From assembly GCA_028571685.1 (NCBI GenBank), contig CM053141.1, positions 930,001 to 994,000 of the forward strand: DNA of 64,000 nucleotides, written 5' to 3'. Position 1 is the stretch's first letter; each line of letters opens with the position of its first letter. The position numbers and the translations under genes were made by a program. This DNA comes from Heterohyrax brucei (taxonomy: Eukaryota; Chordata; Mammalia; Hyracoidea; Procaviidae). The notes beneath the pieces are model-generated. The model was not told the DNA's origin, ran no database searches, and saw only the letters and a program-made list of their open reading frames with translations. Positions 11,561-59,059 of this stretch are shown one piece after another.

Positions 11561-13439
11561 TATTAGGAGCTCAAGCTGAAACAGACTTCACTTCACATCA
11601 AAATAAATCACCTTGGCCTCCTCTGGGTCTTCCAGAAAAGCTGACGGCCTGGTGGCTGGCCTGACACTCCAAGTGCCAGCCACTTTCGCCCCTGGGGACA
11701 GGGAGGGGGTAGGAAGGGCCCGTGTCCCTGACCTGAGCTGGAAGCTAAGATGCACAAATAACATTCATCTTGCCTTGACCTTCCCACCCCCTTCCCTGCC
11801 CGATCAATTTTCAGTCCTTTGGGAGGAGAGGGGACACCAGTGAGGCAGGCCTAGGCACTCGATGAAGCAGACACATGGCGCCTGGGGTCAGAGTCAGCCC
11901 TGGTGCAGGGACAGCTCAAGGTTAGTGCACAGCCAGCATCTCATTCCTCTGGCGGCCTCACCCTTGAGTCTCCCACCCTGTGTGACCACAGCCTCCCCCG
12001 GAGCCCTGCCCAAGAGTGGGGGCTCCATGAAAGGGTCCTTCACATTTCCAGCTCCAAGCCCTGCTGCGGATGTGTCACCCTGAGAGCTGCCTGCCCCTCT
12101 GACTGTCCCATCCTGCCCATGCCCTGTAAGAAGGAGCACCCTGGCCTCATCCTGGAGGCTGCGGGGGTTTTGAGAATCAAGAGTCACAGTCAGGGTGCTA
12201 TCTCAGCGCAACCAGGAGATTCTCTGGGTCCAGAGGGCTTGAAACTAGCCCCTGAATGCTCAACACGAACCCCCACACAACATGGATCCCCCACCTGACG
12301 TGGACCCCACATGACATGGACCCCCACACAACATGTGAACCCTGGAGGGAGCTCAGGAGACCAAGGCCAAGCAGGTGGAGCTGCTCAGAAAGAGGCAGGA
12401 CAGGCCCACGGCACCAACCGGCCCTTGGGGGCACAGCCCTCCAGCACCCAGTCAGTCCCAGCTCTGCCCTGAGTTTGGTGGCTCTGGAGAGGGAGGCAGG
12501 CAGGCAGGACCCCACCTCCAGCTGCAGACTGGGAGCAAATCTGACCGGTCGCCCAAGGAGGGTCCATGACCAGACCCCGCCGCTGCCAGGCTCTGCTTCC
12601 TCGGTTTACCCGTGCAGAACACTCCTGACCACCCAGTGAGGGGGTGGGCCTGGTGCCACCTTCATGCCCCGGAAACCAGGCTGACCCCCCGACCCGCAGG
12701 ATGGGACACCCAAAGGGGCGTTCTCACTGGCACTCCCAGAGGCTCCCTCACTGCTCACAAATGTCCCTGGCTTTGCTGGCCAGGGCCACAAGCCACAAGG
12801 ACCCACAGCCCTGCTTCCGACTGAGCCACAGCAGCTGACCCTAGCTCTTCCTGCTATGCTGGGACCAGGAGCCACATGGACAGGGCACAAGCAGGATGGC
12901 CACACTTCCCTGGCTGTAGGTTCCTCACCACCCAAACTCACCGACGACCCCACAATCCTCCAGGAGGGGCCAACAGCACCCTGATTTCACAGTAAAGGAC
13001 CCCACCCACGGAAAGGAGAAGGCTGGGGGTGGGGCGTGGAGGGCTGAGTCTCTCCCTGGGGATCCTGAGGGCAGGAAGCCCAATGCACCCGCCCTGCCCA
13101 GGGCTGTCCTGTGTAACACCCAGGGTCAGCCCGTCCAAGGTCAGCCGTGGGGAACGGGACTCCAGCCAGGGCTTATCAGGCAGGCCCTTCAGCTCACTGC
13201 GGGACGGAGCCTAGGCCCTCAGGGAGGAAGCAGGAAGAGCCAGTCGGGGTCTTGGTCTCCACCGCGCCCCGGGGGTGGTGCTGATGGGCAGCACAGCCCC
13301 TCACCTGGGGAGTCTCCACAGCTACCCCCAACTTCCCACTGACCCTCCCACTACTCCCCGCACGGAGCTGTGCCACAGAAAGTGTCCCTGGGGTCGCGCA
13401 CAGGGTGGGCGTGCACAGCGGAGCAAGAGGAGAAGCTCC

Positions 13440-14130
13440 CAACCGTTGGGGAGCCTGGGGGCGCTGAGGGCCCGGGGTGCAGGGCTGGGAATTCGGGGGG
13501 AGGAGCAGCGGGAAACGCGGAGAGCCGGCGAGGGGAGACAGGAAGGGAAGGGAAGGGGGTCGCAGCGCCCCGCGCCCCGCGCCGTCTCGGGCCCCCGGCC
13601 CGGTTCGCGTCCCGCCCGGTCCGCAGGTGCGCCCCCCGCCCCCCGCGCTCACCCGGGCCGAGGCTGGCGCTCGGGCAGTCGGGATCGGGCTCCGCGCGGC
13701 CCTCGGGGTCCCCCTGCGCCGCGGGGCGCCCGGCCGCCGGGTCCCCGCCGTCCTGGGCCTGGGCCGCGTCCGCGCGCGCCTCCACGGGCACCACGGTGAA
13801 GTTGGTGGGCATGGCGGGCTCGGCGCCTCTCCGTCCCCGCGGCCGCCCGCGCGCTGCCGCTCCCGGAGTCGCGGTGGCCCCGCCCCGGACGGCGACCCAC
13901 CCCCGGCCGACCCCGCCCGCCGGGCCGGCCCCGCCCCCGCCCGGGCCGATCCGGGAAGACCCCGCCCCCGCTGGGTCCAGGTGACGCACCTGCCCGCCGC
14001 CGCCCCCGCGTCCCAGAAGTGTCCCGGGCCGCGCCGAGCCTCTCGCCCTCCAGGCCTGCGAGAGCGGCCGCCCGGGCGATCGCCTGGCGTCCCCGCCGCG
14101 GGGACCCGACCCACAGTGACTCCTGCCTGG
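13440..14130 (-). promoter_or_regulatory. CpG island and TATA-less promoter of SLC12A7 exon 1b
   Basis: CpG is dense across this interval, unlike the flanks. Upstream of the ATG (higher coordinates, minus-strand gene) there are at least four GC boxes read as CCCCGCCC on the plus strand, at about 13878, 13911, 13929 and 13960. No TATA box is obvious. The transcription start is probably between 13850 and 14000 (inference). Confidence 0.8.
13653..13812 (-). CDS. SLC12A7: SLC12A7 (KCC4) first coding exon, usual form (exon 1b)
   Basis: This encodes the cytoplasmic N-terminus of the electroneutral K-Cl cotransporter KCC4, a plasma-membrane protein that moves K+ and Cl- out of cells in volume regulation and epithelial transport. 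The minus-strand frame begins MPTNFTVVPVEA, which I recognise as the conserved start of mammalian SLC12A7, and continues with an Asp/Glu/Pro/Ala-rich low-complexity stretch as in orthologues. The ATG at 13812 has a GCCGCC-type context with G at -3. The coding part is 53 codons plus one base and stops at a GTGAGC splice donor (intron from 13652), leaving phase 1. A 458-codon frame runs through the exon, but only this part is supported. Exon 2 (the ENSPF region) was not found, so it lies beyond the left edge. The place where other KCC isoforms have a kinase-docking RFxV reads NFTV here. Confidence 0.9.
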
Positions 14131-15930
14131 GCTGCCTCTGGTCGGGACAGTCCCCTCTCCTCGGGCAGTTCCCCTCAAGCCGTCCCCCGAGTCTCTTGTG
14201 CAGGGGGCGCGGCGCTCCCACACTATCCGCAGGCACTCCTGCAGCCCGGGAGCCCCCTCCTCACTGCCGAGGCAGACCCTTTGCGCGGCCAGGGGCGAGG
14301 GGGACGGCTCGCATCTCTTCCGGCAGGCAGCTGGCTCGGGGGGCCAGGGAGACATTTCAGGCGGCACACCTGGCTTACTCGGGGAGGGGGTGCGCGAGCC
14401 CTTGTCCACAGGGAACAGAAGACGGCACAGAAGTCCCCAGGCTTTGGGAGCCTCACAGGACCTGTTTCCCTTCCCCCACCCCTGGGCAACATCTGTCCCT
14501 TCCCGTCCTGGGGGATGTTGCTTACCCTGGCACTGTCTGGGCAGCCCAGGCCAGGCAGATGCAGACGCCCCTAGGCCTCTGCTGACACCCCAGAAATGAA
14601 CAGGGCCTTCCTTAGGCAAATCAGGGGGACACATAGCACGCAGACTCAAGGCTCCCATCTTCCAGGGCCTGGTGGGTTCCTTGAGGAGTGAACCACAGGT
14701 GAGGGAGGGGCAGCAACACGTACACAACAGGGGACTGGTCTAAAGCACCAGCGTCAACGCACGCAGTCACCCCAAACCCTGTTGCAACAATCCTGTAGCA
14801 ACGAGGCAGCGTGGGCCAGAACACTAGCAATAGTTCACAAAGTGAGAACAGCTGAATGTGCACACCCTGTTGTAACAAGTGTGTGGGTCTGTGTCTGTGT
14901 GTCCCCAGTGACCAAGGGGGTGCCGGAGGTCTGTGGATTCCTGTGGCTGAGGGAAGTCAGGGTCCTCGATTCCTACGTGATATAAACGCTAATCTGAGAA
15001 CAACTATTTCTGACCCAAGAGGAGACAGGAGCCTGGGGATGGGTGGCTGATTCCACTTCCTGCCCCTGCTGGGGGGCGGGGGACTGCAGAAGCCAGTTGC
15101 CTGGGCAGCTCTGGAAGGGAAGGCTCCCTGACCCAGCCCCTCACCCACACCCTGACAAGACACCAGTCATCTGAAGGTCACCCGCAGTCCTGCCCCCCAC
15201 CCCCTCCTCCTCCCACCGTGGCAGGTGAGGGTAAAGACACCCAGTGGGTTCTCAACAGGACTTCAAGGAGGTAGGGGCCCCAGGAGGTTCTGGTGGGGCC
15301 CACAGGTCTGGAAGAGTGGGAAAGGCTCCCCTACACAGACACCCTCCAAATAAAACCGTTTCCTGTGTCCTTCCCAGGAGAGACCAGCTTTGCTGACAAA
15401 ATCAGAGTTCTGCTCTGAGTTGCCCAGAGCGCGGGTGCTGGGGCAGGATTCATTACCAGCCTGCCACGCGGACAGCTGGCCAGGGTGTCTGTGAGCTCAG
15501 CACCGATGGCCAGGGCTGGGACCACAGGAGGTCACCAGCAGGTCCCCCCACTTCATTTTATAGACGGGGAGACTGAGAGCCAGGAGGTGAAGGCCGCTTG
15601 GCAGACCCTCAACAAGACGGACTGACACTGTGGCTGCTACGGGCCGCATGCAGAGGAGGGGCTGTGAGCAGAGTGCAGGACTGCGCAGAGTCTCTGGTGT
15701 GCGTAGGGTCCCTGGGAGCCAGAACCCAGTCAGCCACACCTAACAACAACAGAGGTTGAGCTGCACCCCCCGAATTGAGCTGCACCCCCCGAAGACCTGC
15801 GGGAGCGCCCGCCCTGGCACCTGGGTGGTGGCCGTCTCTCCGGTCGTGTTAACGGAGCCGTACCAGCTTCAGGTGTGTCCTCGGCCCAAACCCTCTACAG
15901 AGCTTCCTACAAAGGGAGAGAATGACACAG
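14131..15930. other. No gene seen; unique sequence upstream of exon 1b
   Basis: No recognisable exon or transposable element. A perfect 19-bp tandem duplication (TTGAGCTGCACCCCCCGAA) lies at about 15756-15793. Confidence 0.5.
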
Positions 15931-38490: not shown

Positions 38491-40239
38491 TCTGTGCTTT
38501 TCTGGGTGACGGTCATGGGATCACTTTTTGATTATCCACAAAACAGCAAATGCAGGGTCTGTGTCTTTTTGGCTCCCCATGCTGCCTGAGCACAAGTTTG
38601 CATGAGAAGCAGAGTGTCCCCGAAAGGAAGATGCCGTATGGGTGGGAGTCGGAGGCCTGCACGCTCCCACAGCCGCAGGTCCAGCTGCGAAGGCTGCCTC
38701 CAAAGAAACAACGTCTCAGTCTGGCAGGAGGTCAGCCTTCAACCAGTCTCTAGGAAAACCAAGGTCACTGAGATCCTGTCTGCCTTGATAAACTCTCTGG
38801 GTTGTTCAGTTTGAAAGGCTGATGGCAGATTCCCTGTTCCTAAAGTCTGTGCAGTTCTGGGGGGGAGAGGGGACTGTCACTACCGTCCTCAAACCATGAA
38901 GGGAGGGAGCAGCGTAAGAGGGTAGTCTCAAGGAGTCTAGAATTCTCCCGAGGGCTGGGGTTGGCACTGCAGGTCAGCCAGGTCCCCCCCCCAACCCTCT
39001 AGTCCTTGGGGGTGTGAGGACCCCACCCAGGAGGAACCATTAGGGTCCCAGGTCCCAACAGGAGCTGCAGGAAGCTTGGGGTGCCCAGCTGTTTCCTTGA
39101 TCTTAGTCAGCCCTCGGGTGTGACCAGGCTAACTTGAGTGTGTCCAGCCAGGGCCCCCAAAGACACAGCAATGTCAGAAAACCCCAGCTGCCCCCAAGTG
39201 CATGCTGTTTCAGAGAGGAGGTGCCGGTACCCCACTGTTGGGACACAATTTCTGGGAGTGATGAAACAGGAAGCAAAGACCCAGAAGCCAACGCATTCAG
39301 AAACACCCCATAGCCCCACTTTCTGCCCAGCGTTGTCCTGTAAACGCTGTGATTCAGAAGGGAAGGAGTCACGTGGTCAGAGAGGAAACTGAACAGCCCA
39401 TTGTCCCAGGACACACTGAATGGCAACCTGATCCCTCAGCTAGTGGTCCACAGCCTAGGGTCAGACTGAGGGAATGCCTCACCCTGTGCTCTCCGCCCCA
39501 TCCACCCAACACCTCCCTCCCTGCTCAGGCTTCTGGACGGATTTAGAAAACACACTGCAAAGTCCAGGCATGAAACCCTGGGCTACAGACTCTTGTCCTG
39601 CCCCAGAAGGGGACTGTCCTGACTTCCCAGAGCTCCCCAGAAGCCAGGACTTGCTTCCTAGGACATGGAGGACCCCACCTGTGGGGGGTGGGCTTCATGG
39701 AGCTGCCCTAAGCACACACCTCCGGGAGGTCCTGGCAGGTGGAGCACTTAGGGGTGCTGGGGCAGCCTTAGGGAGATGAGCCCTGAGCCCCAACAGGTGG
39801 GAGGATACAGGGACCAGTGTATCTTGGGACCAGCAAACACTTATCTATGCAGAAGTGGGGGATGGTTTCCCCACCCTCCCAGGGTCTGCAGTGGTGGTCT
39901 CCAGGGACTGAACCCAAAGGCCCGACACCCACCCAGGAGGGCCAGTCTGCAATTCCAGCCAGGCTCCCTCTCTGTCAGGCTGGAGAACAGGGGCTCATTG
40001 TAGACAACCCTGTCCATGAGGGGGGGAGGGCAGAGAACGTCTTAAGGGCACACTTGAGCAGGTGGAGGGGGCCTTCCTACAGGGCCGCCACTAAAGCCGT
40101 GGTGTCTGCCAGGCAGGAGGGGCCAGGTCGCAAGGCCTTTCCGGGACAAGGCAGGAGACAGGAGGGTACGAGGTGACCTGAGGAGAGGAGGGGACAGGAA
40201 GGACGGACTTGGGAGGAGGGGACGGCGGGAGAGGTACAC
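38491..40239. other. No gene seen
   Basis: Unique sequence leading into the orphan CpG island. No exon recognised. Confidence 0.45.
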
Positions 40240-40659
40240 GGAGGCTGGGTAGGGAGGCGGAAGGGGCACCGTCGGCGAGGCAGAGGCCGGGCTGACTTCG
40301 GCAAGGCCCCGCTCCTTCCCCAGGGGAGCAGGGTGGCCCGACTGCGGGGTGGGGGGCAGAGGAGAGGAGGTGCGGCGAGGGACAGGCGGCAGCAGAGGGT
40401 AGCCCGTCGGGGTCCCCGCTGGACCGTGGGCAGTTCGCGGGACTTGGCAGGAAAGGAGGCGGTGGCGCCCCGGGAACGAGGGGTGAAGCCCCGCTCAAGC
40501 CCACCCAGCAGGATTACGAACGGGTGAAGGGATAGCCGGAGCAAGTCTGACCCCGGACCTGAACCCGGTTACCGGGAGAGACACCAGGTGAACGCCTCCT
40601 GCCTCTAGTTCTACGGCTCCCCGAGGGTCGTCAGGGACCCCGTTGGGCCGCCCACAGCG

Positions 40660-40925
40660 CCGCCAGGCCCCGCCCCGAGGGCCCGCCCGGCTCGCTCTCC
40701 GGAGGCCCCGCCCACCCCGGCCCACAGGCCCCGCCCACCCCGGCCCACAGGCCCCGCCCCGAGGGCCCGCCCGGCCAGCTCTCCGGAGGCCCCGCCCACC
40801 CGGCCCACAGGCCCCGCCCCGAGGGCCCGCCCGGCCAGCTCTCCGGAGGCCCCGCCCACCCCGGCCCACAGGCCCCGCCTCGAGGGCCCGCCCGGCCAGC
40901 TCTCCGGAGGCCCCGCCCACCCCGG
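40660..40925. repeat. 60-bp GC-box minisatellite, about 4 copies
   Basis: Units starting near 40665, 40745, 40805 and 40866 repeat almost perfectly with a 60-61 bp period; the first copy carries a short extra insertion. Each unit holds CCCCGCCCC, GCCCGCCCGG and CCCCGCCCA, so the array carries roughly a dozen potential Sp1/KLF sites. Reading frames through it on the minus strand give a periodic Gly/Arg/Ala-rich peptide that is an artefact of the period. Confidence 0.85.
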
Positions 40926-40950
40926 CCCGGTCCGCCGCCGCTGACCTCCT

Positions 40951-40964
40951 GCGCCCCCTGCCGG
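40951..40964 (-). promoter_or_regulatory. CTCF-like binding site
   Basis: The minus strand reads CCGGCAGGGGGCGC, which agrees with the CTCF core CCASYAGRKGGCRC at 13 of 14 positions. It sits at the edge of the GC-box minisatellite in the orphan CpG island. Occupancy cannot be judged from sequence. Confidence 0.5.
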
Positions 40965-41420
40965 CCGCCTGTGGCCGTTGGTGGGGAGGGGTCCCAGGGC
41001 CGGGAAGTCGCCCTTCAGGGGGCCGCTGGGCCCACCTGGCGTCTCCGCGCGCACCGCCCTGTGCCCTTGCCCCTAGGGGCGCCGCCTGAGGAAGGACCGC
41101 TCGCCGCGGGCCCCTTTCACGGGAGACGTGGCGCCGGGCCGCGGGGACCCACTAGTGCCGGCGGGCGTCGCGGGCCTCCACGACCCGGGGCCCTCCTCTC
41201 AGGGCCGCCGCTCGGGCACCACGGGGACCACCGCAGGCCCTGGGACAGCGGCGGAGGCGGCAGCCGGCGGCCTGCCTTCTGGGCCCTCTTCAGCTGCGTG
41301 GCGTTGGGAGCGGGGCCTCACTTGGAACCGGGCGCTCCCGGGGCCATCCACGGTCACTCCGCGGCAGACGGCTGGGCAGCGCGCTCCTGTCCAAAGGCCT
41401 GGTCCTTGCTACCTCCAGGC

Positions 41421-42239
41421 CCTCACGCACCACCTCGGTCAGGGTTCAGGGAAGATGGGTTCCAGCTTCGGGGAGGGTAGGTAGCAATCCTCAAGCCAAC
41501 ACTGAAGATTTGGGGCCACCTCAGGGTGCAGCCTGGGGCAATCTCGTTTGTGTAGACATCACTCCTGCCCTTTATCATTACTTCTGTTTCATTTTTAACC
41601 TAAAACCGAGGCTGTTTCTCAGAGATTCTGTCCCCCGCCCCCTCCCCACTTCCTGACTCCACCTCTCTGGTGCAGGAAGCCCCAATGGTCTCTAGTTCAG
41701 CCCTCAGCCCCCAGTCCCACACTCACGCTGTCCTCCATCCCTCCTGGACTCTGGGTCAGGGGCACTGTCCGCATCCACCTGGGCTCTGGGTCAGCCCCTG
41801 TCCCCATCCCATCTGGACCCTGGGTCAGGCACTGCTCACATCCCACCTGGACCGTGGGTGAGGAACTGTCCCCATCCACCTGGGCTCTGGGACAGCCCCT
41901 GTCCCAGTGTCCCAGCTCACTGCTCCAGTCACTCCCACTCGACAGTCCAGCCTTCCTTCCTCCTAGGACAGCTCCCCAAGACAGCATGATCATCAGTGTC
42001 CTGAAATGTCACCGTGATGGCAGTCACAGTCAAAATGTCACCCACTCAATGTCATCGGGAAGATGCCAGTAAGAACCCCAGTGAGACACCACCTCATCCC
42101 ACCATGACGGAAATGGTCAGAAAAATGGGGACAATGGGTGCTGGTGAGGACGGCACAACACTGGACCCTCGTCCATGGTGCTGCCGCAGTGGAAGACGAT
42201 CCTACAGTCCTTCACAGCTCTGACCTAGAGCTGGTGCGC
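41421..42239. other. No gene seen, apart from a minisatellite
   Basis: Downstream flank of the orphan CpG island; holds the ~40-bp minisatellite listed separately. Confidence 0.45.
41735..41925. repeat. ~40-bp minisatellite, about 5 copies
   Basis: Unit CATCCACCTGGGCTCTGGGT followed by CAGCCCCTGTCC, five copies spaced 35-42 bp with substitutions. Confidence 0.85.
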
Positions 42240-55990: not shown

Positions 55991-57299
55991 CAGAACCAGC
56001 TTTCAAATGCACAGATACATAGAAGCCTCGTACACACAGGCCCACACGGACACACAGCACTCACGTACAGACACACAGACACACAAACAACACTGTTGCA
56101 AGCAGATATACTCAGGTACCTCCAAGACAGCACTGAAACACACAAAACCCTCATATGCACGTGCCCCTCGTGCACACTCAGACAACACAAATATACTCAC
56201 ACTCAGCACATGCAACCCTCTAACACACACAGGCAACCATCTAACACAGAGAAACAAATGACAACCCTCACACAGAGACACACGCCCCTCAGACCCTCCC
56301 AGACACGCATCACTCTCATGTCAGTCAGACACGCACAGGCACACACCCTGACACACACACCACCCTGGTGTGCCAGGCCAAATGGGAGCCGCTCAGGTTT
56401 CTCTGGGTGTGGGGTTCCCAGGTAAGACGACGCCAGGCCCTCAGAGAGACCATCTGAAGCCTCCGTGCTCCCGGCCCTGGGCTCCCGTGCTCTGCACCCC
56501 ACCGAGTGGCGTTCCCCATGCAGTCCCTGTACAGGCTTTTCTGTCCTGGAAGCCCACTCCTGCCAGCCGACCCCAGCCAGCCCCCTGCAACCCTTTGAGA
56601 CGAGTGGAGACTTTGGGGCAGAGATATCTCCCTATCAGGTCGAGGCCTTGGTCACCTGCCCGGGGACATCAGAGGTTGAAGCCCAAGACCCTGAGCCTGG
56701 CCTGGCAACACTGCCCTCCCTCACGCTGCAGTCAGAGGGCAGGGGATGTCAGACAGCACCCCGTAACCTGAAGTGGAAACACACTGGGACTTGGAGACCA
56801 CACTCACTCCCGGGACCTGAAAGCTGGGCTGGAGCTGCATTTGCCCCCCTCCTCAGTCCTCCCCGGGGTCAGAGAGCTACTTGTTCTCAGGAGGGTGCAC
56901 TCTGGGTTCAGGGTGGGGGCTGACCCCTGGTGCCCCGTGACTCAGGGTGGTCAGGAGCACCTGGCCACACCCTCCACCTGCTGAAGGAGACACTTCCTGG
57001 GTCACCTGGGTGGCTTCCTGGGAGCCTCGCCAGCCTGGTCTGTGGGGGCCCAGACCCTGGAGCACTCCACCAGAGTTAGCGGCTGTCCATGCCCCCAAAA
57101 GTGGCAGAGATGAGGACAGTGAGATGGGGTACTGACACCCACCCTTAACTCAGCATTGAGGGGCCAGGACTCTTAGACTTTGAGGGAAGTGGGGGGCTTT
57201 GAGAACCAAGGCTGTGAGGGGACCAGCTCAGCTCCTCAGCTCCAACCCATCCTCTCTCCGGCGGGCAGCAGAAGTGGCTGGCCTTTCCACTCTTGGCGG
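55666..57299. other. No gene seen; CA-rich tract at 55960-56370
   Basis: A pure (CA) run of about 14 units at 55966-55993 continues as degenerate CACACGGACACACAG modules to about 56370. The rest is unique sequence leading into the exon 1a CpG island. Confidence 0.5.
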
Positions 57300-58380
57300 A
57301 GGTGGCTCCGTTCAGACGCTCCACGCCCCGCGGGCAAGGCTGTCAGAAGGCCCCGCCGACAGTGCCCCATGCAGCCCGTCCCCGAAGGCCGCCAGACGCG
57401 CATCGGCGAAGATAGCGGTCCCGGGCCACCCCCGGCCCCACAACGCGTCCTAAAGGGTGGCGCGCCCCAGTCTCCCGCAGGCTCTGCGCCCCAGGTGCTG
57501 GGGCACCCCGAGGGTTCCTCCCAGGCCTGGCACACCCTGAGAGTTTCTCCCCGCGATCGGCGCACCCGAGGGTTCCCCACGGGTCCCCCGCACCTACCGT
57601 AGCGGCTCGGCTCGCGGCAGTAGAGCAGGATGGGCAGCGCGTCCTCCCGCTGCGGCTCGGGCTCCGCGCCCCGCAGCTCGCCCGTCGCGGGCGTCACCAC
57701 GAAGCGCTGGGACATCTAGGCGGCCTCTCCGGGCCGGGTGCCGCGGTGGCTGCGGGATGCTGGCCGACCACGGGCCCCGGGCGACAAGGGACTCGCCGGG
57801 CGGAGCCGGGGGGCGGGGCGGCCGAGGGGCGGAGACAGAAGGGGGCGGGACGGCTCGGGAACGGGGTTCAGCCGGGGAAGACCGTCCGCGCCGGGGAGGG
57901 GCTATGGGACCCGGGCGCGCTGGAAGCGCCAGGAGCACCGGAGGAGGCGAGGTCCGGGGCGAGGCGACCCTGGAGAGAGGGAAGAGGTGGCCAGGACCGA
58001 CCCGAGCGGCCTGGGCTGGTGTGGGTGCCAGGCGGCGGGTCGGACTTGGTGCCGACCTTCTCGAGGTCCCAGCCGGCAGACAGGGAGCCCTTGGTCACAC
58101 AGCTCGTAGGGTCGGAACAGCGCGGCGTCGGGGGTCGCGCTGGGGGACCTTGGAAACCTCAGCAGCCGGGTCAGGGCAGTCGAGCTGGGCCCGGAGGGAC
58201 GGACCCTGGGGCGCACCCGCACTGGAGCATCGCCGAGTTGGCCGTGTGATCCTGGGAAGGGCATCAAAAGCCCGCCGCAAGCGCCCAGGACGCCACGGCA
58301 CCCGAGGAGCGACAGCGCCCACCGCCGCCGGGATCCCTCAGGACGCCGCCAGGCCGGTGCCTGCGATTCCTGGAGTGACA
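57300..58380 (-). promoter_or_regulatory. CpG island and likely promoter of exon 1a
   Basis: CpG density is high throughout. GC boxes of the GGGGCGGGG type lie at about 57810-57832 and 57841-57849, about 100-135 bases upstream of the exon 1a ATG. Several long open frames cross the island (up to 309 codons at 57757-58686 on the plus strand), but they have no recognisable protein content and reflect the scarcity of stop codons in GC-rich DNA. Confidence 0.7.
57598..57715 (-). CDS. SLC12A7: Candidate alternative first coding exon of SLC12A7 (KCC4a-type N-terminus with RFxV motif)
   Basis: On the minus strand an ATG at 57715 is directly preceded by an in-frame TAG, so translation of this exon must start here or later. 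It encodes 39 codons plus one base, starting MSQRFVVTP and ending at Ser-Arg-Tyr, followed by a GTAGGT donor (intron from 57597). The start resembles the alternative first exons of KCC2a (MSRRFTVTS) and KCC3a (VRFMVTP). Residues 4-7 are RFVV, which fits the R/K-F-x-V/I docking site for SPAK/OSR1 kinases. The exon lies in a CpG island on the same strand as the usual SLC12A7 exon 1, 44 kb upstream, and ends in the same phase, so it could splice to the same exon 2. Assignment to SLC12A7 is inference from similarity, strand, phase and position. The Kozak context is weak (T at -3). It could instead be an exon of an unrecognised gene. Confidence 0.72.
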
Positions 58381-59059
58381 GCCAGGCGTTGCCTCAACGG
58401 TGGGCTTGGGGAGCCGTGGCCTGGTGCGCCACCCAGCTCCCACCTCCTGGCCACAGAGTTCAGCCCCTGTGGCTGGGAAGTTGGGCAGAAAGAGGCCTCT
58501 GACAGCTCTGTCTTCGTAGAGACCCTTGAGCGGGTGGGGGGCGGGGGCAAAGAGTGTCAAGCCCTGCTGGGACCAGTGGACAGAAATCCGGGGACAGCTG
58601 CCACTCTGGGTGCTCTGCTCCCCACACACAGTCACAGCTGGTTTCCAGCTCACTTTTCTTCTGGTGCCTTAGGTCTTTGTTGCTGAGCATATTAGCCATA
58701 TTGCCACCCCTTCACCCTTGTTAACCCAACAAAGTTTAGTGGTCACTGCCCCTGGGCATGAGATAGGTGACAGAGTGCCTGCCTCTTTGAAGTGTGCCTT
58801 CTACAGGGGAGATGAAGCACAGAAAGGGGAACTCTGAGTAACAGCTACCCAGGGAAAGGGTCTGGGAGGGTGAGATTTTAGGCAGGGTATCAGGAAAGGC
58901 CCTGGGAGAAGCTGAGGTTTGAAAAATGACTTAAAGAAAGTAAGTGGTCAGCTGTGCAAGGGTCTACTCACACACCTGCCTCATGGCCTATGACGGCTGC
59001 TGCTGGTCCAGCCATCACATCTAATTTCAGTGGCAAAGAGAGGAGATGCAGGAAAGGTA
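58381..59059. other. No gene seen
   Basis: Unique sequence upstream of the exon 1a island and left of the second MaLR provirus. Confidence 0.45.

Follow-up and report, generated by a model that had tools for sequence, protein, structure and literature searches.

Does SLC12A7 (KCC4) have, far upstream of its usual first coding exon, a second one that gives the protein a docking site for the SPAK/OSR1 kinases? We analysed a stretch of 64,000 nucleotides of the Heterohyrax brucei genome (contig CM053141.1, positions 930,001 to 994,000; hereafter the window, to which plain coordinates refer), in which an earlier note had reported a minus-strand ATG directly after an in-frame TAG, 39 codons plus one base, a GTAGGT donor and a protein start of MSQRFVVTP. 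All of these observations were confirmed by reading the sequence. The stretch from 57715 to 57598 on the minus strand is very probably a genuine alternative first coding exon (exon 1a) of SLC12A7.

Exon 1a and the layout of SLC12A7

Exon 1a occupies 57598..57715 on the minus strand and reads MSQRFVVTPATGELRGAEPEPQREDALPILLYCREPSRY. Its ATG at 57715 is immediately preceded by the in-frame TAG, and the 39 open codons are followed by a single base (57598) and then by the phase 1 splice donor GTAGGT (57592..57597, minus strand). Among the 15 GT dinucleotides found over 401 nt counted from the exon 1a ATG, the junction between ACG and GTAGGT scored highest on a splice-donor matrix. The start-codon context is weak in the Heterohyrax genome, with T at both -3 and +4. 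The exon is single-copy: a search of the genome returned its own match (E 2.4e-19) and one other at E 3.1. Over the two strands of the 3.49 Gb genome, a loose M-S-x-R-F-x-V-T pattern had 370 matches, which corresponds to ~0.005 expected for each 100 kb of a single strand. The reversed pattern matched 671 times in the same genome, so the motif by itself shows no enrichment. A search of PDB sequences with exon 1a alone gave no match (E up to 10).

The usual first exon and the other SLC12A7 exons were placed using a human KCC4 sequence as the query. Exon 1b, the usual first coding exon, lies at 13653..13812 on the minus strand and begins MPTNFTVVPVEARAD; it has 53 codons plus one base and a GTGAGC donor. 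All later exons are left of the window, the last about 44 kb past its left end, and the gene spans about 101 kb from exon 1a to the last exon. Exon 1a is thus 43.8 kb upstream of exon 1b, which bears out the earlier placement at 44 kb, and 73 kb from exon 2 (G000:C2:914571-914698, outside the window), which is preceded by the acceptor CCCCAGCAG at G000:C2:914699-914707. Exon 1a and exon 1b each end in phase 1 and read into exon 2 as GDGSPRESSPF. Because the exon 2 acceptor is a tandem CAGCAG, both SRYGDG and SRYAGDG are allowed. The extra alanine is present in 7 of the 31 KCC4a proteins described below, and bats, for example Rhinolophus sinicus, have models of both forms. Exon 2 also carries an in-frame repeat, FFEGKN-GAQENFLEGKN, of which manatee P0002 has a modified version and which the other seven placental KCC4 proteins compared do not have; it is probably an afrotherian exon 2 duplication. 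A search for SLC6A19 in 224 kb (the window plus 80 kb on each side; E 1e-3) gave no match.

The earlier note had also placed exon 1a in a CpG island with GC boxes, and this holds. The island, with a putative exon 1a promoter, extends over 57101..58600 (GC 0.71, CpG o/e 0.74), and five CCGCCC (Sp1-type) boxes were found by motif scan on the minus strand at 57798..57848, 88-133 nt ahead of the ATG. The 585 nt that precede the start codon contain no TATAAA, CCAAT or GGGCGG. By base composition, exon 1b lies within a separate CpG island (13151..14500). Exon 1a probably has a CpG-island promoter of its own, located 44 kb upstream of exon 1b. A third CpG island (40001-41650; GC 0.72, o/e 0.66) is located between the two first exons.

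KCC4a proteins in other placentals

Three protein searches yielded 31 KCC4 proteins with the exon 1a segment, from 25 named placental species and the record P0014. The first, with residues 1-60 of the joined protein as the query, gave 30 matches (E up to 10) among 58 candidates; 28 were KCC4 proteins starting with exon 1a, P0014 having three extra residues in front, while P0030 (goat) and P0031 (muntjac) were models running through exon 1a without a KCC body. The second, with a loris protein as the query, gave 32 matches among 137 candidates and added three KCC4 proteins, P0032 (desman) and P0033 and P0034 (bats). The third, meant for non-placental KCC4a, gave 7 matches among 15 candidates, none of them non-placental: six were placental a forms already found, and one was the horse b form P0035.

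The best protein match to the exon 1a segment was that of the manatee, one of the species in which the earlier note had proposed to look for a conserved MSQRF. The species span the four superorders of placentals: Afrotheria (manatee), Xenarthra (tamandua), Laurasiatheria (including horse, cattle, cats, bats, pangolin and hedgehog) and Euarchontoglires (loris, guinea pig and squirrel). For the horse genus, there is both an a form (A0A3Q2GUB7) and a b form (P0035). No human or mouse KCC4a was among the proteins listed from this database, whose clustering at 90% can hide isoforms.

In 29 of the 31 proteins, the exon 1a segment joins exon 2 (GDG) directly, with 0 or 1 extra residue. Squirrel P0029 has an insert of ~24 residues at this point, and desman P0032 (Galemys pyrenaicus) is a fused model in which the exon 1a segment begins at residue 87 and exon 1b (MPTNFTVV) comes later, after intervening sequence. 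P0033 starts with MAQRF instead of MSQRF. Most of the proteins in support bear model-isoform names and do not count as independent of each other. P0014 (1108 aa), on the other hand, is on an ENA contig of 4,710 bases, which is too short for the gene, so this protein is probably transcript-derived. The proposed second first exon of SLC12A7 is supported by these 31 proteins, 29 of them directly joined, and the question of whether other annotations contain it, left open earlier, can be answered: they do, as automated gene models. Judged by sequence comparison, exon 1a is conserved in placentals and correctly assigned to SLC12A7.

Which parts of the exon are conserved? In an alignment of 29 exons (the 28 from the first search plus Heterohyrax, with P0032-P0034 left out), MS.RF.VTPA and DA.PIL.Y..EP.RY were invariant, while the exon length ranged from 39 to 70 residues and the linker between the two blocks varied. 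The second block is at the end of the exon, where 57599-57643 encodes DALPILLYCREPSRY, with conservation about equal to that of the docking block; by eye, it has no counterpart in KCC2a or KCC3a.

The RFxV motif and kinase control of KCC4

Could the first conserved block serve as a landing site for the kinases? The CCT domain of SPAK/OSR1 binds RFx[V/I], and a change in one CCT leucine weakened the binding of a WNK4 peptide by ~100-fold (PMC4512625, excerpt). The codons for R-F-V-V, residues 4-7 of exon 1a and a candidate docking motif of this type, are at 57695..57706 (minus strand). RFxV is kept in 31 of 31 KCC4a proteins, at residue 4 in 29, at residue 7 in P0014 and at residue 90 in P0032, and in 30 of them it is the sole [R/K]Fx[V/I] of the protein, hedgehog P0011 having one further copy. 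No [R/K]Fx[V/I] was found in Heterohyrax exon 1b or the approximately joined KCC4 body, and no RFx[V/I] in the horse b form P0035; exon 1b, which starts MPTNFTVV, is also without any [R/K/H]Fx[V/I]. As a motif, therefore, the docking-type sequence claimed for exon 1a stands. Since the proteins were found by their similarity to exon 1a, the complete retention of RFxV is partly ascertainment; set against the variable middle of the exon, it is still an informative contrast. Of the 29 aligned exons, 27 have Val at the x position and 2 have Met, and among the three later proteins it is Val in two and Thr (RFTV) in desman P0032. In Heterohyrax KCC4a it is Val, not the Thr that corresponds to KCC2a Thr6.

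A docking role for exon 1a is likely, and from its motif we infer that the KCC4a RFVV probably docks SPAK/OSR1. Transcripts from the exon 1a promoter would make KCC4a, whose RFVV would bind the CCT domain, and the docked kinase would be brought to the inhibitory threonines in the KCC4 C-terminus. Consequently, WNK signalling (low Cl-, shrinkage) should shut down KCC4a more easily than it does KCC4b. Transcripts from exon 1b, on the other hand, would make KCC4b; this form is without a consensus docking site but retains an FTVV threonine that is absent from KCC4a.

The putative target sites are present in both the Heterohyrax genome and the KCC4a proteins. The context SAFTYE[KR]T occurs in all 31 proteins and V[QH]MTWT in 30, all but tamandua P0004; the two are taken here to be the sites numbered Thr926 and Thr980. 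In rat choroid plexus, a SPAK inhibitor lowers the phosphorylation of KCC4 at Thr926/Thr980 (PMC6946680, excerpt). KCC4 is thus already a target of the SPAK pathway, and exon 1a would tune kinase control, not create it; the earlier idea that this exon is the source of WNK-SPAK/OSR1 control of KCC4 does not agree with that result.

The same phosphorylation data lend weight to a different view of the exon, namely that it is real and translated but that its main role is tissue-specific promoter use, with RFVV adding little to kinase control. The motif would add little because KCC4 is phosphorylated via SPAK/OSR1 anyway and because the weak start would keep KCC4a scarce, and the second conserved block, DALPILxYxREPSRY, has no nameable docking role. 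This account overlaps with the docking explanation and differs from it solely in docking. Against it stand the persistence of RFxV in all KCC4a proteins while the linker varies, and the KCC2a/KCC2b precedent (PMC7865768, excerpt). We consider it unlikely, though it deserves serious thought.

Could exon 1a instead be an annotation artefact, a conserved CpG-island ORF stitched onto SLC12A7 by predictors and copied between species? The many "isoform X" records and the odd models, including the insert in squirrel P0029, desman P0032 running through exon 1b, and P0030 and P0031 without a KCC body, would fit such a history. Nevertheless, P0014 is on a transcript-sized contig, two protein blocks are conserved across distant placentals around a linker of variable length, the phase is correct, and MSQRF aligns with the KCC2a start MSRRF. 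We therefore reject an artefact as the main explanation and regard it as very improbable. Still less credible is a different gene starting in the same CpG island: the 73 kb to exon 2 and the ruminant models P0030 and P0031 would suit it, but the 29 direct joins to KCC4 exon 2, with a fitting phase and acceptor, lead us to reject another owner. A chance ORF is rejected on the conservation of the two protein blocks across distant placentals.

Returning to docking by KCC4a, the threonine of the usual form also deserves consideration. Thr6 of usual KCC4 is reportedly a SPAK/OSR1 site as well, in the work of de los Heros (2014). If it is, the use of one promoter or the other would exchange a phosphosite for a docking site. 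Tentatively, and as a single joint reading, the choice of SLC12A7 promoter may swap kinase features, with RFVV but no Thr at the N-terminal phosphosite position in KCC4a, and the FTVV threonine without the docking Arg in KCC4b. In cells of the acid-secreting kidney, the inner ear and the choroid plexus, the two forms might then sit at different WNK-SPAK/OSR1 set points, and DALPILxYxREPSRY, found in KCC4a only, might be a further regulatory element. As a whole, this combination is possible rather than probable.

Prior descriptions and comparison with other KCC forms

Has this exon been described? No description of SLC12A7 exon 1a or of a docking KCC4a was found among the literature matches listed, mainly open-access papers, and in the available excerpt of a KCC review, N-terminal splice variants are given for KCC1, 2 and 3 only (Hartmann and Nothwang, PMC4301019). 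As far as we have seen, exon 1a is known as a database annotation, in automated models, and undescribed as biology. The name "KCC4a" is also in other use; in fish papers, it appears to mean a gene. Q9H2X9-1 is a KCC2 accession. This UniProt code accompanies a human construct called "KCC4a" in an excerpt of PMC13294203, and in an excerpt of PMC8280820 the name is used once, in residue numbering.

Should KCC4a dock SPAK/OSR1, WNK control would be underestimated in experiments on KCC4b, and any knockout, antibody or construct directed at exon 1b would fail to reach KCC4a. KCC4a would then be relevant to acid secretion by the kidney and to hearing, both of which fail in KCC4-null mice (PMC7606576, excerpt). 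Both solved KCC4 structures among the PDB matches listed, 6UKN and 7D99, have the MPTNF-type start, and both entries align from NFTVVP.

How closely does KCC4a resemble the known a forms? Like KCC4a, KCC2a arises from an alternative first exon (SLC12A5 exon 1a; MSRRFTVTS at C17:74409365-74409484 of the Heterohyrax genome), with a phase 1 donor, by eye, and an exon 2 that begins GDG. The starts are MSRRFTVT in KCC2a and MSQRFVVT in KCC4a, so that x of RFxV is Thr in the former and Val in the latter. This Thr6, inside RFTV, is a SPAK/OSR1 site (PMC9355526, excerpt). KCC2b is without RFxV/I, and SPAK overexpression reduced the transport of KCC2a only (PMC7865768, excerpt); in the 3.2 kb downstream of the Heterohyrax KCC2a exon, no KCC2b exon was found by motif. 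KCC3a likewise has an alternative first exon (SLC12A6 exon 1a; RFMVTP at C12:32936170-32936412, phase 1 donor by eye), with VRFMVTPT where KCC4a has QRFVVTPA. Its exon is longer than that of KCC4a, at 90 aa, and KCC3a and KCC3b arise from alternative promoters (PMC9301082, excerpt).

For KCC1 (SLC12A4), an OSR1-binding H/RFxV is claimed at residues 3-6 of the N-terminus (PMC8280820, excerpt), with H where KCC4a has R. Together with the SPAK-pathway phosphorylation of KCC4, this claim implies that docking and non-docking starts are not sharply separated. The proposal that the family arrangement of a docking a form and a non-docking b form extends to SLC12A7 is largely supported: there is an a exon with RFxV and a b exon without it, although KCC4a does not simply replicate KCC2a, having Val where RFTV has its kinase-site Thr. 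KCC4b, the form in 6UKN and 7D99, is the same protein as KCC4a from exon 2 on, and unlike KCC4a it starts MPTNFTVVP, without R/K before F.
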